DNA of 25,772 nucleotides, from positions 1 to 25,772 of IMG/VR virus record IMGVR_UViG_3300042143_000011. One strand, given 5' to 3'. The position numbers and the translations under genes are program-made. The DNA is from a virus. How positions within the stretch are numbered: position 1 is the first letter of the stretch; each line of letters opens with the position of its first letter. The notes under the pieces were generated by a model. The model saw only the letters and a program-made list of their open reading frames with translations. It ran no database searches and was not told where the DNA came from. This document shows, piece by piece, positions 4,346-22,065 of the stretch.

Positions 4346-4602
4346 TATGCACCACCTACAGGCACTATTACACCATAAGCTATAGTACAGTCCTTTGTAA
4401 ATACATATGTTGATGCGTTATCTGTATATCCTACTTCATCATATGTTAGTGGAAAAGCATCAGTACCACTAACAGATACACTTACCCCATGGGTTTTCAT
4501 AATCATAATGTTGTTTGTACCAAATACCCCAGTTATGGGGGTATTAGCTTTCACACTAATACCCCCCTTAAACTGGATAGTAAAACTTGTTGGTTGCGCC
4601 AT
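4345..4602 (-). CDS. Small hypothetical virion protein (85 aa)
   Basis: The start ATG at 4602 follows a strong GGAGG whose bases overlap the stop codon of the tape measure gene, so the two genes are tightly linked. The 85-aa product has no cysteine pair, signal peptide or membrane segment; it looks all-beta (TSFTIQFKGGISVKANTP, THGVSVSVSGTDAFP, STYVFTKDCTIAYGV). The next gene overlaps it by one base. Position just after the tape measure suggests a small tail-tip component or fibre attachment factor. No family recognised. Confidence 0.6.
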   Translation of the reverse strand: MAQPTSFTIQFKGGISVKANTPITGVFGTNNIMIMKTHGVSVSVSGTDAFPLTYDEVGYTDNASTYVFTKDCTIAYGVIVPVGGA

Positions 4603-4610
4603 GTAGCCTC

Positions 4611-7600
4611 CTAACTTGCTTGAGCTAGTAAAGCTCTTTGCGTAGATAATTGTTTAGTGTTATCTGCTGTTAACTTAATTAATAAAGATTTCATATCTGT
4701 ATTCTCTCTCTTAAGTGCCCTAAGTTCCCCAAGGATGTCTTTGAATATCCCAACGGAGTTGTTTAGCCCAAGGTCTTTTGTAGTCTTAGAGTTCACTACA
4801 TACTCGCCTTTATGTACTACTCCTGCTATATCGTACTTTCCGCCATCACCGGTGTAACCACCTGTTGCGTATACTGGAAGCCCCCTACCTATTGCCCACT
4901 CTTTCCATTGGTCGTATATACTAGTATACGCGGTAGTTTCACTACGGGTATCCCCCAACCCTACCATATTTGTAGCAAGCATGTCCATCTGACCAACTAT
5001 ACTCATAAGTTGTTTCCACTCTGTGGGGTTGGCTCTGTAATATTCACTACCGTGAAGTTGATTGTTTGAGATAATATCAAACGAGTTTTTGTAATGCTCA
5101 AGTTGTTGTCGAAGAGTTTCTATGCCTGTTTCGTTTGATACACTAGGACTAAATGAAACACTACCCCCTGAAGATACCGTACCTCCGTTTTGTATAATGT
5201 TATTAGTCACAAAAGTCTTTACACCTTCAAAATTATCAAATGAGGCGACTAAGTCTTTTGTATTTGTAGCTATTTCGGTAAGCTTCCCGCTAGCATCATA
5301 CTTTAACACGGTATCTATAATTCCATCTTCATTAGGGTCAAGCAATAGAAGGTTTTCCCCTTGTGCGTTAATCCCTCTAATTATTTCATAGATGCCATTA
5401 CTATTAGTGTCCAGTGCCCCAACAACACCATTTACAATATCAAAAATACCATCTTGTAGTTGTTTCGCAGAAACAGACTCAAAACCTTTTAAGTCCTCAA
5501 ATATATCAAATAATGTAGCTTCTGCACTAGCCCCAAGTATTATAGTATATGTAGAGGTTTTTATAGCCTGTATAGCACTATTAAGTGTTAACACTTGTGC
5601 ATCAGCACCTGCAATAACCGCGGTAGTTAGCTGCCAAATTTTAGTACCTAATGACTGGGTGTTATCTGCAGTATACCCAGTATTATTAGCGGTACTAGCA
5701 GTATTAGCATTAGATATTTTTAATTCATCTACAACGTCTTGTAACAAGTCACGCTCAGTAACTGTTTGTACTTGAAGTTCTGAAAGTTCTTTAATTGCTA
5801 TAGCTTTTGCAAAAACATAATCCCTCTCTGAGGAGTAATTGGAGGTTTTTAAGTGGTTTGATAGACTACTAATAACTTTAGCTACTGCATCTTCATACGC
5901 TTCCATACTCTCTATATTTTCATAAGATAGTGCTAGCTCCGCTTGTTTAGCCTCGTATAGTGCTCTATTATAGTATGTAGTACCATCCACCATCTCACTT
6001 TGTAAGTCTTCTATAGCACCAGCTAATGCAGTAATCACATTGTCAAATATCCCAATACTAGCCTCTAGTGTATTTACATAGTCATTAGCTGCCTCTGTCA
6101 TACTATTTACAGCATTTGTAGCACTTGAAGTAGCATTGGTGTTTGTTACTGTTGTTGCGGTTGCAGTCTCTATTAACGCATTCCAAGTTAATTGATTTGC
6201 GTAATCTTTATTAAATTTTGTAGCGGTATCTTGTCTCAGGGCATTTGCTAACTTATCTGCAGCATCTGTATCAGCTATAATAGCCGCGCCAAGCGCGTTC
6301 CACCTTTCTATAGTAGTAGGGTCTAAAGACTTTTTAATAGCTTCTGAGTACCTTTCGGAGAAATTTTCTACTGTAACCCCAGTGATACCAAAAGAATCTG
6401 CTAGTTTCTCTACGTCGTCTTTGGCATATTGTGCTTCTAGTCCTAACTGACCTATTGGGTCAGTTCTACCTGTTTTCCAAAGCTCAAAATCCCGTTTCGT
6501 CTCTTTCATAGAGCCCAGTGCCTGTGCCAATGCCTCAGATACAGTAATGTCTAGGTCTTTTGCATAAGTTTCCCATATTTTATAAAAATTAGGGGTATCA
6601 AACAAACTACCGTCTAGTACTGTTTCTAAGAGTGCTTCATTTCCTTTTTCAGCATAGGCGTTAAATAGAGTAAGCCAGTCTTTATCTGCACCCTCTAGTA
6701 ATGATGGGGCATCACTGAAGATATCTTTATATATTCCTGTTGCTGCGGCTATAACATCCTGTTTTATACCATCATTAATAATAATATCTGCTATCTCTTG
6801 TGCAGTAGTAGAACCTGTAAATTTGTACCTATCATCCTCACCTAGTTCCCCACTAGCATAATTCCCTATAGAGCTATTTATTGCAGCTAGCGTTGCATCA
6901 GTATTGCTACTGTATGAGGTACCCCCAACGGAGACGGTAGCCTCCTCATCTGCTGACTTCCCTATTGATACACCACCAATTGTTGTAGTGGCACCCCCGT
7001 CTATTGCCGTACCAAGAGCCCCACCAAGAGCCCCACCAAGAGCAGCCCCTAGTGGTCCTAGTGCTAGTCCTCCTAGTATTGCACCCCCTGCTTTACCTAG
7101 TATTGCTGTACCATCAATAGTAAAACCATTAGGTGGTTGTCCTGGGGTGTTTGTAGTAACGCCAAACAAGCCGCCAACCCCAATAGGATTCCCGTCAGTG
7201 TTCATACCGCTTCCACCAATGGAGGTAGTAGCACCCCCGTCTATTGCCATACCAATACCCTTACCAAGAGCCCCGCCAATAGCAGCCCCTAGTGGACCCC
7301 CCAATACCCCCCCTAGTACTGCACCAATTACATTACCTATTATTGATGTGCCATCAAAAGTAAAGCCAGTAGCTGTCTCTTGGAACCCTGTAGAAATCTC
7401 ACCAAACCCATCGTAGTTACCAGGTATACCGCCACCAGTATCGTTCCCATCAGCGTTCAAAGCATGGCTACTACCACCATAACCACCATCATCACCATAA
7501 CCGCCATAACCACCATAACCACCATCATCATCACTATTTTCATCACTGGTATCCCCCCCGGTCATAAAGCCCCGAAACCCTCTTCTTTCCGCCTCTAAGC

Positions 7601-10600
7601 CTTGAACTAAGGATGGGTGTCTTCTAACCATATCTGCAGGAATAACGTACTCATTAGCATGAACTACACCTACAGGTGTAGTATCCCTAGGGGAAGAGTA
7701 GGTATACCCACCACCACTCCAACCTGAAAATATACTGTCAAAAAAAGAACTAGCGGCACTACTAACTAGTCCTGATGCTACACTTGCTATAGGATTTACT
7801 ACAAGTGTTTTAAGCATCTCTCTAGCTATAGAGTTAGCTACATTTTTAGCTAATTTCTCTAAGTCTAAATAGCCATCGGAAGTAGCATCAAAGAAGTCCA
7901 TAAACCCATCAGTCATAGCATCCGTCATAGCTGCATGAATAGACATTGCGGCTTCAGCAACTGTCTGTTGGTTACGTAAGAACTCTGAGTTCGCTAATTT
8001 CCACCCAGCCACAAAGTCATCTGAGTTTTTAATTCTATCTTCTTCTAGTTTTCTTAAAGCTCGTAGTCTTTGTTCCTCTAACTGTAGCTGTTTTAGCTTT
8101 TCGTCCTCTAGGTTATTCTCTTGTTCTTTAAGTTTATTTGTAAGCTCTTGTTCCTTACCCTCGTTTAATTTCCCCTTTAGTAAAAGTTGCTTTGCTTTAA
8201 TATCTACAATATTCTCTTCTATTTTGGAAATAGCAGTAGTGGTAACTACAATATCCCCTAAGACATTTGCGTAAGCATTTTCAGACTCTAAAAGGTCTGT
8301 ACGGAGCCCTTGGTAATATTGCGTAGCCTCATTTATAGCCCTGTGTGCTTTTTCTTTATCCTGTTCAAGCCTTAAGGATTCTACCTCATTTTTATTTTTT
8401 GCAATTACAGCATCCACTTGGGCTAAAATATCTTTTGTAGTTGCCCTAACAATAGCGGCTTTTTGGTCTGCAATTTTCTTATCTAGCTCAGCTTGAGCTG
8501 TGATAGTAGTTAAAGCACCCCTTTGTTGTTCATAATACTCTAATATTTTCTTTTGGGTTACTAGGGTGTCCCCATCCGCTTTCATGCTAGAAACAGCTAG
8601 CTCTATTTTTTTAAGTTGTGTATCATCAATTTTATCTTGTAGTGTAGCTTTCTTTTGCATAATATCTAATTCAATATTTTGTTTTTCTGATAAGCTACTT
8701 GTTAGTTTCTTTTTCTCTTCTAATAACGCTATGTTCTTAGTGAGTCTGCCTACTTCATCACCACGAGATATAATATCATTCTTAGCCTGCTCTATAGCTA
8801 TACCTTGTCTTTGTACTTCTAGGTTTGCCTCACTAAGTTTTTTACGGTACTCTGCTTGTTGTGCTTCAAATGTGGATATATCTTTGAATTTATGTTTTGC
8901 CTCATCCAAAGCCGTTAGTAATGTAGAGTATACTGATACCTTATCCCCAATAAATGTATCAGATAACATAGTCTCTTGTTTAGTAAAAGAGTTTAGAATC
9001 TTTTTATCGTTTTCATCTATGTTCTTAGCTACTGCGTTATTTGCTTGTACAACTTTAGTTGCATACTCTTGGAATGCCTCCTTACTTAGGGCTACTTGTC
9101 TTCTTACAGAAGCAAATTTAGCGTCCTCTGGTAGGCTATTCTCTATTTTCTGAAAAATAGTAGTAATTTTAGCAATATCCGTAGTATCAATAGTTTGTAG
9201 TTCTTTTAGCCCCTCTACAATAGGTGTAAGACCACCACCACTATTTTCTTGGGAGGTATACTTTATTAAGTCATCTAGTCCTTTAGTTAACTTATCCTTT
9301 TGTTTATCAAAGCTTCCTTGAACTAAGGAAAGGTCCATAAAGTTACCTAGGTCTACTGCAGATACTAGCCGGGACATAGACTCTTTTAGTCCCTTAATAG
9401 CTTCTTCTTTTATTAAATTCTTAAATGTACTAACAATAGTATCGCTTACAATCACCCCTTGTTCTACAACAACACCAGTAATTCTACTAAATACTTCCTT
9501 AAACGCCTCAGGTGCTCCCTCTAGTTGGTCTGTAGGCATCATACGCTCGTATGCTTTATCAATAGGGAGATTAGCAGCATTAGCAAACTCTTGAGCACTA
9601 TTTTTAATAGTTGTGGCTATTTGTACAAGTACATCCTCTGTAAGCTCCCCTGTTTTCTGTAGGTTGTACGCATCTTGTACTAATTGGGTTGTAAGTTCTT
9701 TATTTAATACAATTTTATTATACTTCTCTGTGGACACCTTTAGACGTTCTTGTGCCTCAGTGAGGGTATTAGTAGCTACTACTGCCCCCACAAGACTGGG
9801 GGCTACTATAGCCAATGCTGCCCCTAGCGCGACAATTACTGGGGTAGCTGCTGCTATAGCTGCAGAAATAGCAGCTATAGCTGCTGCACCCCCTATAGCT
9901 GCAACCACCCCCACTATTATTTGTGCAACAGCTTTAACAGCAGCCCCATTCTCTAACAGGAATTGTGTTAATTTTTGTACAGAGTCTGCTAAGGGTTCTA
10001 CCCCCTCTCTTCCTGTCTCTAATAACGCTACCTTAGCTCTCTGCCATGTTGCCTCATAAGATTCCACTACAGCTTTAGATTTGTCTAATGTACCTGCTGA
10101 CTTAGTAACCATCCCATCAAGCTCCCGGATTACTACAGAGGCATTAGCACGTAAAGCTACAAGGATATTTCTCTCTAGTAGGTCCATACCAGAAATCATT
10201 GTATTAAATTCGGTATTTGAGATTTTAGTCATTTGTTGTAATAACCCAACAAATGCCTCGTTAGAAGCAGTACCGCCCTTTGATATAGCATCCGCCAAAG
10301 AACTTTGGGATACCCCAAGTGCGTCAAAGAAATCTTTCACCTCGCCAGAACTGGAGGTAAGTAGTGTGGAGAATTTCCTTACTTGTGTACCAGCGGTACT
10401 TGCATTAAACCCTGCGTTACTTAGTCCTATCGCCATAGCACCAATAGCATCTACAGTGAAGCCTACAGCTGTTGCGGTTGCTAATGCATAGTTAGAGAAA
10501 GTACCAATATCCTGTACTGACATTCTTGATTGGTTAGCCATATACGCCAACTTATCCCCAAGCTCTTGTGCACTATAGCTCGTCTTACCTTGTGCTAAAG

Positions 10601-12128
10601 CTAACTCACCAAATACTTGCAAATACGTAGCCATTGCATTAGACGCGGTAGCTACAGACTCCCCTGTTAGTTTTGCTAATAACATAGTGGCTTTAGTAGC
10701 TTGTTCAATATCTTTAGAATTTGTGCCAGCTCTTGTTAACTCCAAGGCTGCACTATTTACTTCTCTTAACTCTCCACCATATTGTTTTGTTAGGTTTATA
10801 AGTTGTCTCTCAATCACCATACCTGCTTCTAGTCTTTCGTTATAGTTACCACGAACATCAGAAACAGCAGAAAGCATACGTGCAGATTTATCTACCTCAA
10901 CAAGGTATCGAAGTTCTTCACGAAAAGCCCCAGTAACTAATTGTTGCATTTGGTATAAACCAAAATATGCAGAGGCTCTAGCAGCAATATTCTTAAACCA
11001 CTGAAGTCTATCAAGTTTTGTTAATTCATCTTTCATACTAGCTACTACTTTACCTTGTTGTGCAAAGGCAAGAGTAGACGCAGTCATTGTTTGTTTTAGT
11101 TGTACTTCTTGAGCCCCCATAGTATTTAAAAGTTTTTTAGCTCTACTAGAGTTAGCTTCCCCTTTTTGAACTAATTCTTGGTACTCCGCCCCAGTAGCTC
11201 TTAGGTTTTCCCTAAGTCTTGTAATTAAAGCTATTGTTGCTTGGGTGTCTACTTTCATTTTTTCTAGCTCTGTGTTAGCAGTAGCTTTAGCTGTTGGAGA
11301 GGCAAGCTTAGCTGAATTTATACTTCTTTGTAGCTCATGAATATTCTTATCATACTTTAAAATTGCCATATCGGCGGCATCTATAGCCTTCATAGAAGAT
11401 TTTATTTGCGCTACCATACCTGTAGTATTAAAAGAGGAGGTAGTATCCATTATAGACTTTACAGTATTTTTAAGTGTTATAAATTTTACATTTGTTTTAT
11501 CCATCTCTATACTAAAATTCCGTAACCCACTAGTACTAAGACTAGATACTAAATTTGTACCTGGGAAAGCCTCAATACTTGCTTTCATTGAATTTAGCTT
11601 ACCTAAGTACGCAGTAAGATTTGATATTTCAGTAGTAGAAATAAATGCCTTTTTATTTGTAAGAATGTTGTTAACTTTAACTATCTCACTTGTAATAGTA
11701 GACTGTATAGCTTGTTCTTTTCTTAGGGCACTGAGCCTTTCAGCAGAAGACACTCTTTGGTATTTATCTAACTTAGTTGTTTGTTCCATCTGTTTTGTTA
11801 TTGTTTTACTCATAACAGACATAGCACTATTAACACTAGCAATACTTACAGCAACCTCAGAGAATATACTAGCCATATCTGAGCCAGTACCACTTTTTAA
11901 TTTATCCCCCAAAGTACTAACTAAAGATAACATATCAAGTATAGTTTTTTTAAAATTTTTACCTATACTTTTATCTGGGAAAAGGTTGCCCCCTACACTA
12001 CTTAATTCCATAAGTGCAGTGGTAGTTTTTGCTATATCCCCCTGTAGTTCTTTTAGTACTTTTTTTGCCTGTACATCATCTAATGTTACGTCTATGTTAG
12101 CTTCAAATTTTTCTTCTCTATAGCCCAT
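4611..12128 (-). CDS. Tail tape measure protein, unusually long (2505 aa)
   Basis: The best start is ATG at 12128 with AAGGA six bases upstream; a TTG two codons earlier is less likely. The protein sets tail length and is ejected during infection. Residues about 400-640 match the TP901-type tape measure core (LINLTKQYGGELREVNSAALELTRAGTNSKDIEQA, read here as key blocks LTRAG, MANQSRMS, GLSNAGFNASTAGTQ). Residues 730-785 are a long hydrophobic Ala/Ile/Val segment, likely the membrane-active part. Residues 1040-1350 are charged and coiled-coil-like. A GVVHANEYVIP motif near 1490, normally close to the C-terminus of tape measures, is followed by a Gly/Asp/Tyr-rich stretch, two glycine-zipper repeats (about 1586-1642 and 1668-1722), about 700 further residues, and a second GVVHKGEYVV motif near 2435. 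Confidence 0.95.
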   Translation of the reverse strand: MGYREEKFEANIDVTLDDVQAKKVLKELQGDIAKTTTALMELSSVGGNLFPDKSIGKNFKKTILDMLSLVSTLGDKLKSGTGSDMASIFSEVAVSIASVNSAMSVMSKTITKQMEQTTKLDKYQRVSSAERLSALRKEQAIQSTITSEIVKVNNILTNKKAFISTTEISNLTAYLGKLNSMKASIEAFPGTNLVSSLSTSGLRNFSIEMDKTNVKFITLKNTVKSIMDTTSSFNTTGMVAQIKSSMKAIDAADMAILKYDKNIHELQRSINSAKLASPTAKATANTELEKMKVDTQATIALITRLRENLRATGAEYQELVQKGEANSSRAKKLLNTMGAQEVQLKQTMTASTLAFAQQGKVVASMKDELTKLDRLQWFKNIAARASAYFGLYQMQQLVTGAFREELRYLVEVDKSARMLSAVSDVRGNYNERLEAGMVIERQLINLTKQYGGELREVNSAALELTRAGTNSKDIEQATKATMLLAKLTGESVATASNAMATYLQVFGELALAQGKTSYSAQELGDKLAYMANQSRMSVQDIGTFSNYALATATAVGFTVDAIGAMAIGLSNAGFNASTAGTQVRKFSTLLTSSSGEVKDFFDALGVSQSSLADAISKGGTASNEAFVGLLQQMTKISNTEFNTMISGMDLLERNILVALRANASVVIRELDGMVTKSAGTLDKSKAVVESYEATWQRAKVALLETGREGVEPLADSVQKLTQFLLENGAAVKAVAQIIVGVVAAIGGAAAIAAISAAIAAATPVIVALGAALAIVAPSLVGAVVATNTLTEAQERLKVSTEKYNKIVLNKELTTQLVQDAYNLQKTGELTEDVLVQIATTIKNSAQEFANAANLPIDKAYERMMPTDQLEGAPEAFKEVFSRITGVVVEQGVIVSDTIVSTFKNLIKEEAIKGLKESMSRLVSAVDLGNFMDLSLVQGSFDKQKDKLTKGLDDLIKYTSQENSGGGLTPIVEGLKELQTIDTTDIAKITTIFQKIENSLPEDAKFASVRRQVALSKEAFQEYATKVVQANNAVAKNIDENDKKILNSFTKQETMLSDTFIGDKVSVYSTLLTALDEAKHKFKDISTFEAQQAEYRKKLSEANLEVQRQGIAIEQAKNDIISRGDEVGRLTKNIALLEEKKKLTSSLSEKQNIELDIMQKKATLQDKIDDTQLKKIELAVSSMKADGDTLVTQKKILEYYEQQRGALTTITAQAELDKKIADQKAAIVRATTKDILAQVDAVIAKNKNEVESLRLEQDKEKAHRAINEATQYYQGLRTDLLESENAYANVLGDIVVTTTAISKIEENIVDIKAKQLLLKGKLNEGKEQELTNKLKEQENNLEDEKLKQLQLEEQRLRALRKLEEDRIKNSDDFVAGWKLANSEFLRNQQTVAEAAMSIHAAMTDAMTDGFMDFFDATSDGYLDLEKLAKNVANSIAREMLKTLVVNPIASVASGLVSSAASSFFDSIFSGWSGGGYTYSSPRDTTPVGVVHANEYVIPADMVRRHPSLVQGLEAERRGFRGFMTGGDTSDENSDDDGGYGGYGGYGDDGGYGGSSHALNADGNDTGGGIPGNYDGFGEISTGFQETATGFTFDGTSIIGNVIGAVLGGVLGGPLGAAIGGALGKGIGMAIDGGATTSIGGSGMNTDGNPIGVGGLFGVTTNTPGQPPNGFTIDGTAILGKAGGAILGGLALGPLGAALGGALGGALGTAIDGGATTTIGGVSIGKSADEEATVSVGGTSYSSNTDATLAAINSSIGNYASGELGEDDRYKFTGSTTAQEIADIIINDGIKQDVIAAATGIYKDIFSDAPSLLEGADKDWLTLFNAYAEKGNEALLETVLDGSLFDTPNFYKIWETYAKDLDITVSEALAQALGSMKETKRDFELWKTGRTDPIGQLGLEAQYAKDDVEKLADSFGITGVTVENFSERYSEAIKKSLDPTTIERWNALGAAIIADTDAADKLANALRQDTATKFNKDYANQLTWNALIETATATTVTNTNATSSATNAVNSMTEAANDYVNTLEASIGIFDNVITALAGAIEDLQSEMVDGTTYYNRALYEAKQAELALSYENIESMEAYEDAVAKVISSLSNHLKTSNYSSERDYVFAKAIAIKELSELQVQTVTERDLLQDVVDELKISNANTASTANNTGYTADNTQSLGTKIWQLTTAVIAGADAQVLTLNSAIQAIKTSTYTIILGASAEATLFDIFEDLKGFESVSAKQLQDGIFDIVNGVVGALDTNSNGIYEIIRGINAQGENLLLLDPNEDGIIDTVLKYDASGKLTEIATNTKDLVASFDNFEGVKTFVTNNIIQNGGTVSSGGSVSFSPSVSNETGIETLRQQLEHYKNSFDIISNNQLHGSEYYRANPTEWKQLMSIVGQMDMLATNMVGLGDTRSETTAYTSIYDQWKEWAIGRGLPVYATGGYTGDGGKYDIAGVVHKGEYVVNSKTTKDLGLNNSVGIFKDILGELRALKRENTDMKSLLIKLTADNTKQLSTQRALLAQAS
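6960..7125 (-). repeat. Second copy of an internal duplication in the tape measure gene
   Basis: This segment encodes FTIDGTAILG, then a glycine zipper (GGAILGGLALGPLGAALGG) and AIDGGATTTIGG. It is a diverged direct repeat of the segment at about 7202-7370, which encodes FTFDGTSIIG, a similar zipper and AIDGGATTSIGG. The DNA shares runs such as the one encoding the AIDGGAT block. Glycine zippers of this kind insert in or span membranes in other proteins; here that is inference. Confidence 0.75.
7202..7370 (-). repeat. First copy of an internal duplication in the tape measure gene
   Basis: This encodes residues of about 1586-1642: FTFDGTSIIGNVIGAVLGG, a continuing Gly/Ala/Leu zipper, and AIDGGATTSIGG. 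It repeats, with divergence, at 6960-7125. The spacing between copies is about 240 bases, so the duplicated unit probably includes the intervening GFT-leading segment as well. Confidence 0.75.
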
Positions 12129-12137
12129 ACTCAATCC

Positions 12138-12827
12138 TTACTTGTGTTGACTTGCCTCCAAATCACTTATAAATTTCTTAACAACATTCACGGCTACCCC
12201 AAAAAACTCAGTCTGCTCGGGGACACCCCCAAGTTCTGGAAGTACCCCCTTATCCCAAGAATAGTAAGCGTTAAATATGTCCGAAACTAACTCATTATCT
12301 TTATAATACATAGGGCAATGGTCATAGGTTATGTTACCTAAAATCACCTTAAAATCTTTATCAAAAATCTTATCGTAGTCCTCTCGGAACTTACAGTTTC
12401 TTGCAGTGTCTATTCCTCTTTCTTTACACACGGAGCATTTCCATGTATCTGTAGAAAACTTAGAGTCCATAGCCAAAGTTACATTCATATTAATCTTGGA
12501 TATAACCTCGTTAGTTATGGTAGATACTTCATAAATTGTTTGTGCTATTTCTGTACGTGTTTGTATTGGGAGTATGTTTAAGTCTGTAGGGGGTACAATA
12601 GTACCGTCTGTGTAGTACGCATTAACATACCGCAGTACGCCACGCTCTAGTAATATGAGGTTAATTTGATTAGCACTTTGCGTGTCTAGTGCCCGTATAA
12701 AGTCTAAATCTCTTACAGATAGTGCCCTGAACACTACTTGGAAAGGGTTTAAGTTCTCTGGGTCTTGGTCTATAGTAAATAAGTACTCTCTGCGATAGAG
12801 AGTACTTAAAGATACCTTACTGTTCAT
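12138..12827 (-). CDS. Tail assembly chaperone, second (T-like) component with a Cys cluster
   Basis: This 229-aa gene lies directly upstream of the tape measure gene and after another small tail gene, the standard place for the tail assembly chaperone pair (lambda G and T analogues). Its ATG overlaps the preceding stop as TAATG, and the upstream sequence AAAAAGAAATA has no GGAG core, so it is either translationally coupled or reached by a -1 frameshift. Residues 1-120 are mostly helical (FRALSVRDLDFIRALDTQS). A cluster Cys131-x2-Cys134, Cys145, His170 and Cys171 could bind zinc. The chaperone role is inferred from position and size; the cysteine cluster is not part of the textbook lambda proteins, so a separate tail or hub function is possible. 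Confidence 0.65.
   Translation of the reverse strand: MNSKVSLSTLYRREYLFTIDQDPENLNPFQVVFRALSVRDLDFIRALDTQSANQINLILLERGVLRYVNAYYTDGTIVPPTDLNILPIQTRTEIAQTIYEVSTITNEVISKINMNVTLAMDSKFSTDTWKCSVCKERGIDTARNCKFREDYDKIFDKDFKVILGNITYDHCPMYYKDNELVSDIFNAYYSWDKGVLPELGGVPEQTEFFGVAVNVVKKFISDLEASQHK
12780..12808 (-). other. Strong hairpin within the 5' coding region of chaperone 2
   Basis: A perfect 12-bp inverted repeat (TAAGTACTCTCT paired with AGAGAGTACTTA) encloses a 5-base loop. It encodes residues 7-16 of the second chaperone gene and starts 24 bases downstream of the AAAAAG run described at 12833-12838. It could stall ribosomes and stimulate frameshifting or limit initiation at the TAATG start. No U-tract follows, so it is not a terminator. 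Confidence 0.6.
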
Positions 12828-13270
12828 TATTTCTTTTTAGTAGCGGTAGTTTCTTCTGAAACTTCTGGCGCTTCTGTCTTTTTAATATTACCTAAAATAG
12901 TGTCAGCATTCTCAGGGAATTTTGATACTGCTACAATAGCGTTTGCAATCTCAGCAATTACTGCGGGCGGTAACAACGCTAAACACTCATCAAGTACTTC
13001 GCCTTTTGCGTTCTTCTTGATAGGGTAGTCTGTTTCACCATCTGTAAGGTTACTCCAAGATTTGATACCATACTTAAGTGCCTTAAGGTTGTAAGTACCT
13101 TGTTTTAACGTGATAGACTCTTCACCACCAAAAATTACATAACCATCATCCAGTAATGCGAGTACTTTGGAATCTAGCGATGAGATAACAACTGTAAAAG
13201 CGTCATCTTTACCTCTCTCTGAGAAAGGAACAAAAGTGTATTCTTTGCTTCGTGAAACAAATAATGCCAT
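12827..13270 (-). CDS. Tail assembly chaperone, first (G-like) component
   Basis: The start is the ATG at 13270, seven bases after GGAGG; an in-frame upstream extension to 13345 runs through a hairpin and has no ribosome site. The 147-aa product opens with MALFVSRSKEYTFVPFSERGK and is acidic, with a helical centre (LDECLALLPPAVIAEIANAIVAVS) and a charged tail ending in ATKKK. Small acidic proteins upstream of the tape measure gene, overlapping a second frame, are usually the G-type tail chaperone. The gene ends in AAA AAG AAA TAA, where a -1 slip would join it to the next gene. Its SD is complementary to the loop of an upstream hairpin (13302-13339), unlike all other structural genes here. 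Confidence 0.7.
   Translation of the reverse strand: MALFVSRSKEYTFVPFSERGKDDAFTVVISSLDSKVLALLDDGYVIFGGEESITLKQGTYNLKALKYGIKSWSNLTDGETDYPIKKNAKGEVLDECLALLPPAVIAEIANAIVAVSKFPENADTILGNIKKTEAPEVSEETTATKKK
12833..12838 (-). other. Candidate -1 frameshift slip site joining the two chaperones
   Basis: The minus strand reads ACT AAA AAG AAA TAA TG at the end of the first chaperone gene. A -1 slip on AAA AAG would read GAA ATA ATG and enter the second chaperone frame without meeting a stop. The seven bases are TAAAAAG, so the A site can slip perfectly while the P site pairing is imperfect. A 12-bp hairpin starts 24 bases downstream, farther than the usual 5-9. The arrangement matches the lambda G/G-T layout; the slip itself is inference. 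Confidence 0.4.
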
Positions 13271-13301
13271 GGTAAAACCTCCGTAAAATATAAAAGTGTA
13301 A

Positions 13302-13339
13302 CTACTACAACCCAAGGGAGGCAACTTGGGCTGTAGTAG
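13302..13339 (-). promoter_or_regulatory. SD-complementary hairpin upstream of the first tail chaperone
   Basis: In minus-strand sense a 15-bp stem (CTACTACAGCCCAAG with CTTGGGTTGTAGTAG, one G-U pair) closes an 8-base loop TTGCCTCC. The loop CCTCC is complementary to the GGAGG of the chaperone gene at 13278-13282, 19 bases downstream of the stem. It is the same design as the hairpins ahead of the three HEG genes. The outer 5 bases of the 5' arm can alternatively pair in a competing 7-bp hairpin at 13335-13353 (AGTAGGA, loop CGTGT, TCCTACT), so two mutually exclusive folds are possible. Confidence 0.65.
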
Positions 13340-13351
13340 GAACACGTCCTA

Positions 13352-13828
13352 CTAGTTATATGGGGAAATTTTATATTCCTCAAATAACTCTGATAATCTT
13401 TTAGTTAATTTACTCGACTTTGGGTACTCTGGGAAGTTACTAACTGTACATATACTTTTTAACTTATTGTAATTACGTTTAGAGACAGTAGGTGCTTTAG
13501 GTTTTTCGTTTGGATGTATATAGTCTGTTGGTGGTGCTTTATGGTATTCAATCAAGCTTAGTAACCATTGCTCTAAATTAGGTATACCAAACCTCTTAGC
13601 TGCGTTAACTACCTTACCCTCCATACAGTTACAACTAGCACAACATAACCCCCTAATCAACCCTGCACCATTTTCACCAATAACTTCTTTAGATGTCATA
13701 TGCTTGTGGTCTATATGTGTACGAATACCCCCTAAGGCACCCCCACATATAGCACACCGCCCGTTTTGTTTACTGTATAATAACAGCCTAATACTTGGTA
13801 GGTCTTTACTTGTTGTTTGTATTAACAT
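13352..13828 (-). CDS. Recombination endonuclease VII-like (T4 gp49-type) nuclease
   Basis: The 158-aa product has the endonuclease VII layout: zinc ligands Cys25-x2-Cys28 and Cys63-x2-Cys66, the catalytic HIDHKH block with Asp40 and His41, and RGLCCASCN ending in Asn67. The spacing and total length are close to those of T4 gp49, a 157-aa enzyme that cuts Holliday junctions and branched DNA before packaging. The ATG at 13828 overlaps the end of HEG2 by seven bases, so the two are co-translated. Placement inside a tail operon, next to homing-type genes, is odd for a resolvase; the family also supplies free-standing mobile nucleases. The domain call is firm, the role (resolvase or mobile nuclease) is open. 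Confidence 0.85.
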   Translation of the reverse strand: MLIQTTSKDLPSIRLLLYSKQNGRCAICGGALGGIRTHIDHKHMTSKEVIGENGAGLIRGLCCASCNCMEGKVVNAAKRFGIPNLEQWLLSLIEYHKAPPTDYIHPNEKPKAPTVSKRNYNKLKSICTVSNFPEYPKSSKLTKRLSELFEEYKISPYN

Positions 13829-15438
13829 TTAAGACTCCACTTGACCTTACCTGCATCAAATACTTGATACAGCCCATTATTAGCACAGTTCTGTTTTTCC
13901 GTCAGGGTGTTATCATACACCTTTAGTTTTGTTTTTAGTATACTATGTCTAAACCTAAATTTATGTTGTAACACCCCTCTTGTGTAATACTTATAATCTG
14001 GGTAAAGTGTTGATTCTTTTTTAAACCCTAAAGTTTCATAAAGCCCCCCGTTACTATACATATTATCACTAAATGATGTAATTTCTGTAGGTGTATACAC
14101 ACGTATAAAGTGCATAAGAAGTTTAGACGCACCCCCAACAACAGTAACCCCGCCCAAAGTACAAAACCTAGTAAGGTCATATACAGTATCTGTAGTCTTC
14201 TTAAAACACATAACTGCTTGTAGAGTATCATTGTAAGATAGCCCTATATACACACTAGCCCCGGTTCCGTACCCATAAATATGGTGGGTATTTAAAAATT
14301 CCTTAGCCTGTGGTGGGCTAAGTAATACAGTATTACATTTTCTTGCATACACTTTAATATTATTTTTTGTAAGTTTAGTGTGTATTATGTTTTGTATAAT
14401 ATGCTTTTTAGCTACCCAATCTTCTGCCCAGAACTGTAGTAGCTGTATACCCTTATCTCTGCATAAGATATACTTTTGGTAGTGAAGGTTCTTATTCTTT
14501 TGAAACTTGCTTGAGTGCCAATATGTACCATGTACCTCAATAGCCATATTATACTCAGGTAGGTATATATCTAATTCTTTAGGGGGGATAATGCTTCTTA
14601 TATTTGTTACTATTTCCCCGGGGTATACACTTTTTATGTAGTCTACAATCTCAATTTCTTGAGAGGATACACTCACAGAACAGGAACTACAAAAATGGTT
14701 TTTTACTGCTTTATCTGAGAGTACTGCGTAACTAGATGTAAAGGTAGTACCACACTTATCACATGGGTACTTCATATTTTTTTCAGAATTATTTATATAA
14801 TCCTCTGGGTTTAAAATACCAGATGCAGTAATATCCGCGTGTTTAGCTCTGTTGCAATTACCAACCATTGTGTATATACAGGAGGTACACATGCCTGTAC
14901 TATTTTTTACTGTTTGGGCGTTGAGTGACCGTATGTACTCTTTCCCACACCCAGTACATACCCACCTAAGATTAGGGGTACTGTTGTTAGTGTACTCTTC
15001 TGGGTTTAAACAACCAAGCCCAGCAAGAGCATCAATGCTAATTTTACGTCTTTTACCTAAATTAGATATAGTACAGGCATTACATAGCCCTAAACTACTA
15101 GGTGCGGTTTGGGTAGTAAATGACCGTATGTACTCTTTCCCACACCCAGTACATACCCACCTAAGATTAGGGGTACTGTTGTTAGTGTACTCTTCTGGGT
15201 TTAAACAACCAAAAAGTGCTAATTTTTCTTTTTGATGGCGTTTAGGGTTGTTATTTATTTCCTTGTAACAATTAGTACAACACCCTGTACCCTTCTTCTG
15301 GTGCATTAGGCTTCTTTGATACGCCTTGCCACAATCTTTACAATACCACTTAAGGTTATGTGTACGTACATCTATATACTCTTCTGGGTTTAAGCACCCT
15401 AGCTCTTCTAGCTGACTTAATACATTTTTTCTAACCAC
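13822..15438 (-). CDS. HEG2: free-standing homing-endonuclease-like protein with zinc-ribbon array
   Basis: The start is GTG at 15438, five bases after TCTGGAGG, giving 538 aa that align at once with HEG1 (MVRKNVLSQLEELGCLNPEEY). An apparent extension to 15480 runs into a hairpin and is rejected. The N-terminal 230 residues hold four repeats, each with a G(C/I)LNPE(E/D)Y lead, CxxC, and a second CxxC about 24 residues later: likely zinc ribbons for DNA recognition. Around residues 288-307 is ELDIYLPEYNMAIEVHGTYWHS-type sequence (key residues E, D, E, H), which I assign to the Vsr-like EDxHD nuclease fold. The C-terminal domain has RFC, GGASKLL and SFSDNMYSNGGLYETLGF blocks shared with HEG1 and HEG3. 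Cutting specificity cannot be read from sequence. Confidence 0.85.
   Translation of the reverse strand: MVRKNVLSQLEELGCLNPEEYIDVRTHNLKWYCKDCGKAYQRSLMHQKKGTGCCTNCYKEINNNPKRHQKEKLALFGCLNPEEYTNNSTPNLRWVCTGCGKEYIRSFTTQTAPSSLGLCNACTISNLGKRRKISIDALAGLGCLNPEEYTNNSTPNLRWVCTGCGKEYIRSLNAQTVKNSTGMCTSCIYTMVGNCNRAKHADITASGILNPEDYINNSEKNMKYPCDKCGTTFTSSYAVLSDKAVKNHFCSSCSVSVSSQEIEIVDYIKSVYPGEIVTNIRSIIPPKELDIYLPEYNMAIEVHGTYWHSSKFQKNKNLHYQKYILCRDKGIQLLQFWAEDWVAKKHIIQNIIHTKLTKNNIKVYARKCNTVLLSPPQAKEFLNTHHIYGYGTGASVYIGLSYNDTLQAVMCFKKTTDTVYDLTRFCTLGGVTVVGGASKLLMHFIRVYTPTEITSFSDNMYSNGGLYETLGFKKESTLYPDYKYYTRGVLQHKFRFRHSILKTKLKVYDNTLTEKQNCANNGLYQVFDAGKVKWSLKC
14158..14220 (-). repeat. 63-bp exact repeat shared with HEG1 (3' part)
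   Basis: These 63 bases are identical to 15986-16048 in HEG1. They encode part of the C-terminal domain (QAVMCFKKTTDTVYDLTRFCT). Flanking DNA is clearly diverged, so the identity is patchy. Confidence 0.85.
14926..15017 (-). repeat. 92-bp exact direct repeat in HEG2, copy B
   Basis: This segment is identical base for base to 15121-15212, with a period of 195 bp (65 codons). It encodes a zinc-ribbon core (LNPEEYTNNSTPNLRWVC, then CGKEYIRS). The exact match points to a recent tandem duplication or conversion of one zinc-ribbon unit. Confidence 0.9.
15121..15212 (-). repeat. 92-bp exact direct repeat in HEG2, copy A
   Basis: Identical to 14926-15017. The two copies form the second and third zinc-ribbon units of HEG2, whereas the units around them are diverged. 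Confidence 0.9.
15268..15393 (-). repeat. 126-bp exact repeat shared with HEG1 (first zinc ribbon), HEG2 copy
   Basis: Identical to 17081-17206. It encodes the first zinc ribbon (EEYIDVRTHNLKWYCKDCGK, then QKKGTGCCTNC). The neighbouring DNA on both sides differs, so exchange between the two genes has been local and recent. Confidence 0.9.
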
Positions 15439-15467
15439 TATTTCCTCCAGAGAAATATTTAGTATTT

Positions 15468-15516
15468 TGTAACATAACAAGACGGTAGTCTGGAGTTACC
15501 GTCTTGTTATGTTACA
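15468..15516 (-). promoter_or_regulatory. SD-complementary hairpin upstream of HEG2
   Basis: A perfect 20-bp stem (15468-15487 with 15497-15516) closes a 9-base loop, ACTCCAGAC in minus sense. CTCCAGA in the loop is complementary to TCTGGAG of the HEG2 ribosome site (15444-15451), seven bases including the three bases upstream of GGAG. The linker from stem to SD region is 16 bases, long enough to allow a pseudoknot. No U-tract follows, so a terminator is unlikely. Confidence 0.75.
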
Positions 15517-15625: not shown

Positions 15626-15657
15626 AAATATAGAAAGTTTTTACCCTTTCTATATTT
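15626..15657 (-). terminator. Intrinsic terminator at the end of HEG1
   Basis: In minus sense a 12-bp stem (AAATATAGAAAG with CTTTCTATATTT) closes an 8-base loop GGTAAAAA and is followed by CTTCT. The stem includes the HEG1 stop codon. It separates HEG1 from the promoter-like element at 15570-15609. Confidence 0.65.
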
Positions 15658-17251
15658 TGAGTGACCATTTGATTTTACCAGAGTCATAAACTCTTTGTAT
15701 TCCATGGTTTAAGCAGTTTTGATACTCAGATAAAGTACTGTTATACGCTTCAAGTTTATTAACAAGCTTAGAGTGTCTATAGCCAAACTTATGGTTTAGT
15801 GTACTGTTATCTAAGTACTTGTAGTCTACAGGTACTTCTTGTACTTTAGAGAACCCTAAAGTTTTATATAAGCCACCATCACTATACATATTATCACTAA
15901 AAGATGTAATCTCCTCGTGTGTATGAGTAACTATAAAGTGCTTCAATAACCTAGACGCACCCCCAACAACTGTAATACCTTGAAGAGTACAAAACCTAGT
16001 AAGGTCATATACAGTATCTGTAGTCTTCTTAAAACACATAACTGCTTGAAGTTCTTCATTAATATAAAGACCTAAAGTAATAGTAGGTGCACTACCAAAA
16101 CCCTGTATATGGTTTTTATTTAAAAAAGGTATAGCATCACTTAAAGACACTTCGAGTATCTTACAATTCCTTGCAAAAACCTTTTTGTTTCTTTTAACAA
16201 TTTGAGTACTTAACATTGACTTTATAAGCTCTGAGTTATTTATCCAATCTATGTCCCAGAACTGTAGTAACTTTATACCTTGAGCCCTACAAGCATTATA
16301 TTTTATCCTGTGGTACTGTGGGGATTTGAACTGGGCAGAGTGCCAATAAACACCATTAAGCTCTATAGCCAACTTTAAGTCGGGAAGGTATATATCAAGT
16401 TCTAACGGTGGGATAATATCTCTAGTGTTTTGTTCTACTTCTTTACTATAGATACTTTTTATAAACTCTACAATCTCAAGTTCATGAGATGATGTTGAAA
16501 CACTACAAGTCTCACAGAAATGCTTTGAGTTCCTCTTATTTGCTAAGGTATCAATGTTAGTTATATACTCATTACCACATTTATCACACAAGTATTTCAT
16601 ATTTTTAGTTTTAATATTTATATACTCTTCTGGGTTCAACACGTTAAATGTACTTATAGTAGTTTGTGTGTGTTTTGTTTTATTTGCAATTAGTTGGTAT
16701 GTACACTTTTTACAAAGCTTAGTACTTCGTTCATACTTATAAAGAGAAGTATTAAACCTCTTATTGCAATTTGTACATTTCCATATTAAGTTATCTACAT
16801 TAGTGTCAATGTACTCTTCTGTATTTAAACAACCTAAAGAAGATATATAGTCTGCACTATGTTTATGGGGTCTACGTGTTTCCTTAATCGTACAATAATA
16901 GCATAATTGTTTTGATATTTTCCGAGAAGCATAACTTGCTAAGAAATGGGTATCACAACCATTACATACCCATAGTAAATTTTTTGTTTTAGTATTAATA
17001 TACTCTTCTGGGTTTAAACAACCTAACGTTAATAGTTGGGTTACTGTAATCTTTTGTGTTGTACTATTTATTTTTTTAGCACAATTAGTACAACACCCTG
17101 TACCCTTCTTCTGGTGCATTAGGCTTCTTTGATACGCCTTGCCACAATCTTTACAATACCACTTAAGGTTATGTGTACGTACATCTATATACTCTTCTGG
17201 GTTTAAACACCCCAGCTCTTTTAACTGACTTAAAATCTTTTGGTGTACCAT
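15650..17251 (-). CDS. HEG1: free-standing homing-endonuclease-like protein with zinc-ribbon array
   Basis: The 533-aa product starts at ATG 17251, five bases after CTGGGAGG. It has four N-terminal zinc-ribbon repeats of about 55 residues (lead (C/V)LNxEEY, CxxC, second CxxC), a Vsr-like/EDxHD nuclease segment at about residues 283-305 (ELDIYLPDLKLAIELNGVYW, then HS), and a C-terminal domain with RFCTLQG, GGASRLLKHF and SFSDNMYSDGGLYKTLGF. HEG2 is its close paralogue; the two share exact 126-bp and 63-bp blocks. It sits between the tail tube gene, which ends in a terminator, and its own terminator, so it forms an insulated unit. Such genes spread by cutting alleles that lack them. The nuclease family is assigned from motif memory and activity is unproven. 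Confidence 0.85.
   Translation of the reverse strand: MVHQKILSQLKELGCLNPEEYIDVRTHNLKWYCKDCGKAYQRSLMHQKKGTGCCTNCAKKINSTTQKITVTQLLTLGCLNPEEYINTKTKNLLWVCNGCDTHFLASYASRKISKQLCYYCTIKETRRPHKHSADYISSLGCLNTEEYIDTNVDNLIWKCTNCNKRFNTSLYKYERSTKLCKKCTYQLIANKTKHTQTTISTFNVLNPEEYINIKTKNMKYLCDKCGNEYITNIDTLANKRNSKHFCETCSVSTSSHELEIVEFIKSIYSKEVEQNTRDIIPPLELDIYLPDLKLAIELNGVYWHSAQFKSPQYHRIKYNACRAQGIKLLQFWDIDWINNSELIKSMLSTQIVKRNKKVFARNCKILEVSLSDAIPFLNKNHIQGFGSAPTITLGLYINEELQAVMCFKKTTDTVYDLTRFCTLQGITVVGGASRLLKHFIVTHTHEEITSFSDNMYSDGGLYKTLGFSKVQEVPVDYKYLDNSTLNHKFGYRHSKLVNKLEAYNSTLSEYQNCLNHGIQRVYDSGKIKWSLKI
17081..17206 (-). repeat. 126-bp exact repeat shared with HEG2 (first zinc ribbon), HEG1 copy
   Basis: Identical to 15268-15393. 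Outside this block the two genes differ, including in the codons just before and after it. Confidence 0.9.
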
Positions 17252-17269
17252 AATTTCCTCCCAGAAATC

Positions 17270-17319
17270 TATAATTTATTTAAGGTAAGCTGGGAGGTTC
17301 TTACCTTAAATAAATTATA
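17270..17319 (-). promoter_or_regulatory. SD-complementary hairpin upstream of HEG1
   Basis: A perfect 20-bp stem (17270-17289 with 17300-17319) closes a 10-base loop, AACCTCCCAG in minus sense. CCTCCCAG is complementary over all eight bases to CTGGGAGG, the HEG1 SD at 17257-17264. Only five bases separate stem and SD, so an intramolecular pseudoknot would need partial opening of the stem base, or pairing could occur between molecules. No U-tract follows. Confidence 0.75.
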
Positions 17320-20098: not shown

Positions 20099-21898
20099 TT
20101 AATTGTACTCTTTTATGAACACTGCGTTACCACAGTCCCAAATTCTATCATATCCATTTGCTAGCATATTTTCATATTCTGTTTTTGTAACATCAAAATT
20201 CTTAAGTAATTTAGGTAGTTTATGTTTCTGGTATTTTACCCTAGACTCTAGTAGTAAACTTCTATTTTTAAAGTACCAATAATTTGGTGCGGAGTTATGT
20301 GAGAAATTAAAACCTAGTTGGGTATATACCCCACCAACACTATACCGTAAGTCTGCATATGAAACTAAGCTAGATACTTTATAGTTCTTTTCAAAAAAAC
20401 TCAATAATTTACTAGCACCCCCAACTACAGTAGTATTTAATATATTACAGAAACGTAAAAGCTCGTACTGTTGTTGTCCGTATCTCGACTTACTAAAAGT
20501 CATTAAAGATACTAGTATATCGTTGTGGTACAGCCCCAAATTAATACTGCTTACCACATACCCCTGCCTATGGTTCTTCTGTAAAAACTCTTTAACATCT
20601 GAGGTAGTTACCTCCTGTACTAAAGTAGCTCTTGCAAATATCTTATCTGTTTTTCCTAGCTTACTTAATAGAATAGATTCTATAATTTCTCTTTTATTAA
20701 CCCACTCATTCTCAAATATGTGAAATAAGGTTATACCTTTTTCTTTTGCTATATTAGTTTTATTTAAGTGGTACATTCTATCTTTACCCCTTGACTCTGA
20801 GTGCCAATATACACCATCAAACTCTACCCCAAAATTATACTCTGGGAGGTACGCATCTATTTCATACCTACCTTGTAACACTCTTTGTCGTTCTAAAACT
20901 GTAGTATGCTCTTTTAGAAAATCAATAACCCCTTGTTCTGCTTTAGAAGAGGATGCAGAGCATCGTTCACATAGTGTACTGTGCCCAAAACGTACAGAGG
21001 GCATAGTTACAATTTTTGTACCGTGCCCACACCTAGGAATTATACTAATCTTACTTGTATTCTTACTATGTACACCTAAGAATGTACAACCATTTGCCTC
21101 TACTTCTTTTTTAACTGATTCATCAGTTACTCTTCTTTTACTATTACATTCATCACATAAAATATTTTTTTTCTTTCTTAAAAGCTCAGCCCTACTAATA
21201 GTAGTAGTATGCCCACATGGGGATATATATGTAAGGGGGTCTTTCATTGCTGTATACTTTACTACTTTACATCCCCTACTTGTACATAATTTCTCTATAT
21301 ATGCTACATCTTTTATCCTACGGTCATTAGCAACACCTCTGGCACAATTACTACACACATTATACTTTGAAGTAACAAAAGCATTTAACCCATTTAAAGT
21401 ATTTTCATGCCCACAAGATGCTATATAGGTTATAGGTGCTTTAGCTTTTGTAAATTTTAATAAGGTGCACCCTCTTTCTGCAAAGATATGGTCAATATCA
21501 TCAAAATACTTTATATTTGTGCTAGCAGAAGTCATAGCGCAACTTCTACACAAACCTAAGCCCTCAGTTATTGCCTTTAAACAGGAAAATGTATACTCAT
21601 GCCCACAAGAAGCAATTACTGTGACTGGGGAGGTTACATTAATATATGAAAGTAGCTTACACCCTTTATTTTCTATAATACCCTCTACATCATTAAAAGT
21701 ATATTTAGTTGCTCTAGCACTATGTGCACACTTTGTACATATACCACTAGACTTAATAAAACTAGAAAAAGAGCTTAAAGTATTTTCATGCCCACAAGAT
21801 GCTATGTAAGTTACAGGCTCTTTAGTTTTTGTATACTGTAGTAATTTACAGTTTCTATCCGAGAATATCTTCTCAACTTCTTCATAGCTATATGTCAT
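20099..21898 (-). CDS. HEG3: homing-endonuclease-like protein with CxH/CxxC repeat array
   Basis: The 599-aa product starts at ATG 21898, seven bases after GTGGAGG. Five repeats of about 60 residues fill the N-terminal 310 residues; each has a GC or NC start, then CGH, then CxxC (for example IASCGHENTL ... CTKC), a different zinc-binding spacing from HEG1/HEG2. The nuclease segment at about 344-366 (EIDAYLPEYNFGVEFDGVYW, then HSES) matches theirs, as does the C-terminal domain (RFCNILN, GGASKLLSFF, SYADLRYSVGGVYTQLGF). Thus the effector half is shared while the recognition array differs. It sits directly after the major capsid gene. I infer a free-standing homing endonuclease; target site and activity are unknown. 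Confidence 0.85.
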   Translation of the reverse strand: MTYSYEEVEKIFSDRNCKLLQYTKTKEPVTYIASCGHENTLSSFSSFIKSSGICTKCAHSARATKYTFNDVEGIIENKGCKLLSYINVTSPVTVIASCGHEYTFSCLKAITEGLGLCRSCAMTSASTNIKYFDDIDHIFAERGCTLLKFTKAKAPITYIASCGHENTLNGLNAFVTSKYNVCSNCARGVANDRRIKDVAYIEKLCTSRGCKVVKYTAMKDPLTYISPCGHTTTISRAELLRKKKNILCDECNSKRRVTDESVKKEVEANGCTFLGVHSKNTSKISIIPRCGHGTKIVTMPSVRFGHSTLCERCSASSSKAEQGVIDFLKEHTTVLERQRVLQGRYEIDAYLPEYNFGVEFDGVYWHSESRGKDRMYHLNKTNIAKEKGITLFHIFENEWVNKREIIESILLSKLGKTDKIFARATLVQEVTTSDVKEFLQKNHRQGYVVSSINLGLYHNDILVSLMTFSKSRYGQQQYELLRFCNILNTTVVGGASKLLSFFEKNYKVSSLVSYADLRYSVGGVYTQLGFNFSHNSAPNYWYFKNRSLLLESRVKYQKHKLPKLLKNFDVTKTEYENMLANGYDRIWDCGNAVFIKEYN

Positions 21899-21916
21899 AT
21901 TTTATCCTCCACGATA

Positions 21917-21968
21917 AAAGTTTAAATAAGGGGTAAGTAGTGGAGTAAATACCCCTTATTTAAACTTT
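21917..21968 (-). promoter_or_regulatory. SD-complementary hairpin upstream of HEG3
   Basis: A perfect 19-bp stem (21917-21935 with 21950-21968) closes a 14-base loop, TTTACTCCACTACT in minus sense. CTCCAC is complementary to GTGGAG of the HEG3 SD (21906-21912), including two bases outside the GGAG core. Only four bases lie between stem and SD. The stem sequence is unrelated to the stems ahead of HEG1, HEG2 and the chaperone. Confidence 0.75.
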
Positions 21969-21992: not shown

Positions 21993-22065
21993 CTTAAAGT
22001 CTCCTTAAATTATACAAGGTTTTCTAAATCTTAGTTAGTTATGTATAATTTAAGGAGACTTTAAG
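21993..22065 (-). other. Long 24-bp perfect inverted repeat between capsid gene and HEG3
   Basis: Arms 21993-22016 and 22042-22065 are perfect complements, with a 25-base loop. No U-tract follows on the minus strand (the arm is followed by GTCTATTG), so it is not a standard terminator, although it lies after the capsid gene. It may stabilise the capsid mRNA 3' end, serve as an RNase III-type processing site, or be a trace of element insertion. Confidence 0.65.

Follow-up and report, generated by a model that had tools for sequence, protein, structure and literature searches.

The nuclease cassette and the tail genes

The DNA analysed here, referred to as the window, is the 25,772-nucleotide stretch that makes up positions 1 to 25,772 of the IMG/VR virus record IMGVR_UViG_3300042143_000011. 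Its minus strand carries every annotated-looking gene and RNA is therefore read as the minus strand throughout. The genes relevant to this report are the following:

12827-13270, minus strand: presumed first tail assembly chaperone (147 aa), ATG at 13270-13268, assigned from its location between tail tube and tape measure
13352-13828, minus strand: endonuclease VII-like HNH gene (Pfam PF02945, E 1e-12), stop at 13352-13354
13822-15438, minus strand: HEG2, Hef/VSR-like homing endonuclease gene (HEG), GTG start at 15438 likely
15650-17251, minus strand: HEG1, Hef/VSR-like homing endonuclease gene
20099-21898, minus strand: third HEG, Hef-like homing endonuclease gene

The chaperone gene thus comes after a HEG1-HEG2-endonuclease VII cassette, and its product is without a match in either Pfam or PHROGs. 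No homologues of the chaperone or of the tail tube were found in named phages and none that were usable in genomes, while the second chaperone gave two weak genome matches (26% identity, E 6e-4 and 8e-4). No usable relative of the window phage was found among viral contigs, named phages and about 400 genomes of the phylum of G001, a MAG titled Epsilonproteobacteria. A single close relative was found, IMG/VR contig 3300042114_000027; its sequence shows no difference where the two overlap and therefore brings no comparative information. Part of the tape measure protein (window 4611-12134) is weakly similar to Helicobacter and Nitratiruptor phage proteins, which hints at a Campylobacterota host. 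HEG1 (start 17251) is near-identical to HEG2 (start 15438) over about 150 bases of 5′ coding sequence, while the leaders and the later coding sequence diverge, a pattern such as a duplication or a gene conversion might leave.

A stable hairpin precedes the first tail chaperone

Between the endonuclease VII-like gene and the chaperone start codon, the leader contains the following elements:

13302-13339, minus strand: H1, hairpin of 15 bp with one G.U
13325-13339, minus strand: 5′ arm of H1, CTACTACAGCCCAAG
13317-13324, minus strand: loop of H1 (8 bases), TTGCCTCC
13302-13316, minus strand: 3′ arm of H1, CTTGGGTTGTAGTAG
13317-13321, minus strand: CCTCC within the H1 loop, complementary to the chaperone Shine-Dalgarno (SD) sequence
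13278-13282, minus strand: chaperone SD, GGAGG, outside H1 and 19 bases 3′ of the hairpin
13296-13345, minus strand: extension of the H1 base in the minimum-energy fold, GUGU (13342-13345) with ACAC (13296-13299)

A prior sequence-only reading had described two hairpins here, H1 and a second one (H2, see below); both are present and their coordinates are correct. It had also proposed that the H1 loop can mask the SD, and this is borne out by the complementarity of CCTCC to GGAGG: hairpin and anti-SD loop together occurred in none of 6000 shuffles. Folding of the leader is more stable than expected by chance (z = -4.1), with an equally stable fold in 0 of 200 shuffles. Paired with its own SD, the H1 loop forms five Watson-Crick pairs and one G.U.

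H1 was rejected as an intrinsic terminator, since it has no T run and no minus-strand terminator was called at 13302-13339. A search with the Rfam covariance models gave no gathering-score match in the window and none at the leader at E <= 1. Sigma-70-like sites are no commoner than in shuffles, although sigma-70 may not be the phage's own promoter type.

Four leaders of the window carry loops that match their own SD

The window was scanned, at a loose setting, for hairpins with a loop able to pair with an SD that precedes a start codon. Exactly four leaders were found, all at gene starts and on the coding strand, namely those of HEG1, HEG2, the third HEG and the chaperone, against 0 to 2 matches in each dinucleotide shuffle at the same setting. 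As for the chaperone leader, none of 6000 shuffles combined a hairpin with an anti-SD loop for any of the HEG leaders. Two further claims of the prior reading hold: the chaperone leader resembles those of the nuclease genes in type, being likewise a hairpin with a loop complementary to its own SD, and the chaperone is the sole non-nuclease gene of the window to have one. The endonuclease VII-like gene, which overlaps the end of HEG2, has no such leader of its own. The hairpins of the three HEGs are as follows:

17270-17319, minus strand: hairpin of the HEG1 leader, perfect stem of 20 bp; loop AACCTCCCAG, 8-bp match to CTGGGAGG at 17257-17264
15468-15516, minus strand: hairpin of the HEG2 leader, perfect stem of 20 bp; loop ACTCCAGAC, 7-bp match to TCTGGAG at 15445-15451
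21917-21968, minus strand: hairpin of the third HEG leader, perfect stem of 19 bp; loop containing CTCCAC, 6-bp match to GTGGAG at 21907-21912

At these three genes as at the chaperone, where the match is 5 bp long, the SD lies outside the hairpin. Only 4-5 nt separate the stem from the SD at HEG1 and the third HEG, and from a helix-geometry estimate about 3-4 A-U pairs at the base of the stem must therefore fray for the loop to contact the SD. When every loop was paired with every SD, each loop bound its own SD best (-11.0, -15.7, -12.1 and, for the chaperone, -9.8 kcal/mol, against -7.6, -10.8, -8.3 and -8.3 kcal/mol for the best non-own SD of the same loops). The idea that the loops merely mimic the 3′ end of 16S rRNA was rejected, as the matches run past the core and the own SD is the preferred partner of every loop. 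At the three HEGs, loop:SD pairing is stronger than SD:16S pairing (-11.0/-9.3, -15.7/-10.2 and -12.1/-9.3 kcal/mol), whereas at the chaperone it is slightly weaker (-9.8/-10.7 kcal/mol).

The paralogues HEG1 and HEG2 share 86% identity over their first 200 coding bases, and yet their leaders are no more alike than shuffled sequences (49% vs 50% identity) while each keeps a 20-bp hairpin and a loop for its own SD. Such leaders, unlike in sequence and alike in design, argue for selection on structure. Masking of the SD by the loop is thus well supported as a sequence design, because each loop prefers its own SD and the HEG1 and HEG2 leaders have diverged while retaining the same layout.

Another inverted repeat (21993-22065; 24 bp, perfect, with a 25-base spacer) lies between the capsid gene and the third HEG leader. 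Its two arms contain AAGGAG and CTCCTT respectively, no gene is evident directly after it, and it is possibly the leader of a lost gene.

Loop:SD hairpins at homing endonuclease genes of other phages

For comparison, about 2 Mb of sequence was collected, mostly around Hef-type HEGs, and submitted to an anchored test in which starts with an SD were scored for a hairpin with loop:SD complementarity at a shuffle p <= 0.01, the HEG class being fixed by BLAST. A first pass found such leaders at 7 of 127 HEG genes and at 9 of 860 others (Fisher 2.1e-3). With a relaxed overlap rule, the counts became 9 of 138 HEG starts and 11 of 1153 others (Fisher 8.5e-5), a P value that is somewhat optimistic because the rule was loosened after locus L177 had been seen. 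The HNH gene of L121, which falls outside the Hef class, was counted among the non-HEG starts. The clear cases are L218, L189, L177, L137, and L009.

Loop:SD leaders are enriched at HEGs without being a general property of Hef genes, an idea that was rejected: when the first IMG/VR and genome loci were scanned strictly and without regard to genes, matches were about as many as in shuffles, enrichment appears only when the search is anchored on starts, and about 93% of Hef-type HEGs elsewhere have no such leader by these criteria. None was seen at the Hef genes of Campylobacter phage NCTC12673, Tenacibaculum phage PTm1, and Aeromonas phage Ah1. The first test likewise gave none at twelve additional loci to which the L009 HEG had led, and the relaxed rule later gave one, that of L177.

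In two of these leaders all six loop bases are complementary to the SD hexamer, CTTGCT:AGCAAG in L189 (ORF 3440-4906) and CTTACC:GGTAAG in L177 (ORF 3791-5158). Both hairpins sit inside a closing stem and are without the GACAG motif described below. At L036 (minus strand, ORF 304-2214), a tail-sheath-like gene of a Campylobacter phage follows an AT-rich hairpin with a loop that matches the SD by up to 10 bases; it may be a second structural-gene case, or possibly a chance match. No paper describing loop:SD leaders at HEGs was found in the literature searched, most subscription journals lying outside its scope.

A three-way-junction element ahead of nuclease genes

Six leaders (L121, L218, L009, L197, L106, and L137) have GACAG and a closing stem in common, and a descriptor search, which requires the stems P0 and P2 and not the loop match, added L117 and L120 to give eight nuclease-gene leaders. 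The element, P0-GACAG-P1-P2-TAA-P0′, consists of the P0 stem, GACAG, the P1 hairpin, the P2 hairpin, a TAA-like junction and P0′, and lies at the following positions:

L121: 1152-1220
L218: 2794-2857
L009: 3080-3138
L197: 262-324
L106: 3069-3130
L137: 2640-2703
L117: 8231-8298, minus strand
L120: 1913-1981

The pairs of P0 covary, with 6-8 Watson-Crick pairs of 8 in each of the eight leaders. For six of them P0 is independent evidence, because the loop:SD test had found them before P0 was noticed. The P2 loop is complementary over 6-9 bp to the SD, except at L117 and L120, where it matches the start codon. The genes downstream encode Hef-like, DUF7487-containing or HNH-like nucleases; by our own reading of the sequences, the L121 gene would be of the HNH type and the L117 gene a nuclease. 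Rfam gave no credible match for the element (six members searched, and two at looser settings). Group I introns (Rfam RF00028) occur near HEGs and the GACAG element at L121:2285-2530 and at L106:716-1051 and 1855-2089.

A covariance model of P0 and the junction only (R1) recovered the eight leaders used to build it and, on whole genomes, three further sites at E < 0.01. The first, L273, precedes a truncated HEG, and its loop CCTTAGC pairs with GTTAAGG with one G.U. The second, L274, stands before a non-HEG ORF and has little loop:start complementarity (a 4-base match to the start codon), and no gene is evident directly downstream of the third, L275. The HEG remnant at L273, in which an N-terminal zinc finger is joined to the C-terminal end, looks internally deleted, with the GACAG leader and its loop:SD match kept. 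The weak model matches L271, L276, and L279 were judged chance or unclear, and L276 and L279, from wider searches, look like chance. No junction-model match was found at L265 and L266, relatives of the L218 HEG, and R1 found none at the window leaders up to E 5. What the window leaders have in common with the element is the complementarity of a loop to the start region, not family membership.

A putative damper of chaperone translation

The chaperone leader is best explained as a cis-acting translation damper, and it probably works through a loop:SD pseudoknot. On the minus-strand transcript, H1 would fold first and the emerging SD would then pair with the pyrimidine-rich H1 loop (CCUCC:GGAGG), the resulting pseudoknot competing with the 3′ end of 16S rRNA for the SD. 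The same device at the three HEGs, with stronger helices (6-8 bp), would keep a tight hold, and the chaperone would only be damped. This prediction of tight control for the nucleases and mild control for the chaperone follows from the strength of loop:SD relative to SD:16S pairing, stronger at the former and weaker at the latter. The pseudoknot would most likely be opened by nothing specific, merely by competition from ribosomes. We infer from the sequence features that it forms in the cell, lowers initiation and so limits synthesis of the nucleases and, here, of the chaperone. The enrichment at HEGs elsewhere, the P2 loops of the GACAG element and the loop pseudoknot of the type III preQ1-I riboswitch speak for this model; the weak pairing at the chaperone, the short linkers at HEG1 and the third HEG, and the scarcity of such leaders among Hef-type HEGs elsewhere speak against it.

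A separate proposal concerns the origin of the chaperone leader and not its action. It could be a relic of the leader of a lost or rearranged HEG, with the loop:SD pairing weakened so that the structural gene can be expressed. The leader is the only non-HEG one of the window, has the weakest loop:SD pairing and belongs to a gene that follows the nuclease cassette; L274, the GACAG-junction member in front of a non-HEG ORF, is a possible parallel. However, the chaperone stem has no evident sequence in common with the HEG stems, and no cassette-free relative was found. Such an origin is thus a tentative suggestion, and it does not exclude a damping function. Equally tentative is the idea of the prior reading that the leader may have come in together with the nuclease cassette.

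As to action, the hairpins might instead serve as sites of processing by RNase III or RNase E, or as stems that stabilize the mRNA, the SD match being secondary. Their stems are long (15-20 bp) and nearly perfect, and RNase E processes some HEG transcripts of T4-like phages (PMC2988022), but processing or stability would leave unexplained both the match of each loop to its own SD beyond the GGAGG core and the short stems with fully complementary loops at HEG leaders elsewhere, which makes this explanation improbable.

The prior reading had proposed a switch built from competing stems, in which H1 and H2 are mutually exclusive and ribosomes ending endonuclease VII, or some factor, set the balance that decides whether the SD is masked. 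The second stem is as follows:

13335-13353, minus strand: H2, competing hairpin, 7 bp (AGTAGGA / CGTGT / TCCTACT), extendable to 8 bp (13334-13354)

H2 is real and its overlap with the H1 arm is above chance (P = 0.0015 with the 40 upstream bases shuffled). The two hairpins share bases 13335-13339, and H2 does cost H1 its five outer pairs as had been stated. H2 also runs into the 3′ end of the endonuclease VII gene, where it overlaps the stop codon at 13352-13354. In simulated transcript growth it is the first to form; a shortened H1 then stands alongside it, until completion of the 3′ arm of H1 displaces it. At equilibrium H2 is practically absent (pair probability <= 1e-4), because H1 folds at -24.6 kcal/mol, or -30.5 kcal/mol with the GUGU/ACAC extension, vs -23.1 kcal/mol for H2 with the shortened H1, a difference of 7.4 kcal/mol in favour of the extended H1. 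Moreover, H2 with the shortened H1 keeps the same loop on offer and would therefore not unmask the SD by itself. An H2-like competitor is marginal at HEG1 (P 0.03) and at the third HEG (P 0.07), and there is none at HEG2, the leader of which is nonetheless among the strongest. A working switch did not stand up to these results and is unlikely; within the damping model, H2 would be a transient folding intermediate and not the second state of a switch. Least probable of all, and to be considered only remotely, are DNA-level palindromes such as endonuclease operator or recognition sites, for which the perfect 19-20 bp inverted repeats at the three HEGs and the T4 precedent of an I-TevI operator upstream of its own gene (PMC2988022) would speak, against the lack of an evident common sequence among the repeats, the chance-level identity of the HEG1 and HEG2 leaders, and loops complementary to the SD, which DNA sites do not need.

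Implications for selfish nuclease genes

How selfish nuclease genes are kept harmless within essential phage operons is an open question, translational silencing being established for a few T-even examples only. Since a loop complementary to its own SD can be read from sequence alone, the question of silencing becomes testable across metagenomic phages. On balance, we lean towards regarding loop:SD leaders as a recurrent, partly convergent low-translation device of phage HEGs, realized in several unrelated RNA architectures, including the undescribed P0-GACAG-P1-P2-TAA-P0′ family, which is associated with HEGs of different nuclease types. Such a device could end up controlling a structural gene, as the tail chaperone would illustrate, and this case raises the possibility that phages inherit these leaders for genes of their own.

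Comparison with known systems

Leader hairpins are established as translational silencers of the HEGs I-TevI and mobE, and one is implicated at segB; in these cases the structure encloses the SD (PMC2988022, PMC3014915). The translational hairpins of these T-even HEGs (I-TevI, segB, and mobE of phage Aeh1; PMC2988022, PMC3014915) resemble the window leaders in that an RNA structure hides, or in the window would hide, the ribosome-binding site of a phage HEG. They differ in that their SD lies within the helix, whereas in the window the loop matches an SD that is not part of the hairpin. Transcripts of I-TevI that start at a late promoter lack too much of the 5′ part for the hairpin to form (PMC2988022, PMC3014915). 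The T-even hairpins precede HEGs, which in the window is true of three leaders, whereas the chaperone is a structural gene. The leader of seg43 in Aeromonas phage 25 (PMC2988022; DQ529280) is similar to those of the window in that a hairpin of very high stability immediately precedes the ribosome-binding site of a free-standing HEG, that site not being in the stem; unlike the window loops, the seg43 loop is not complementary to the SD.

Pseudoknots offer a second line of comparison. The T4 gene 32 leader (PMC3014915) provides a phage mRNA pseudoknot involved in translational control, as is proposed here, but it lies 67 nt upstream of the start codon, nucleates gp32 binding and is not described as a loop:SD pairing (PMC3014915). 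In the type III preQ1-I riboswitch, the RNA of which has been solved, the SD is sequestered by a loop pseudoknot (PMC10622847). That riboswitch is a metabolite-sensing aptamer, whereas the window leaders have long stems and an association with HEGs, match no Rfam family and show no sign of a ligand. What the two share is a pyrimidine-rich hairpin loop for the SD, within an H-type pseudoknot that is seen in the riboswitch and predicted for the leaders of the window (PMC10622847).
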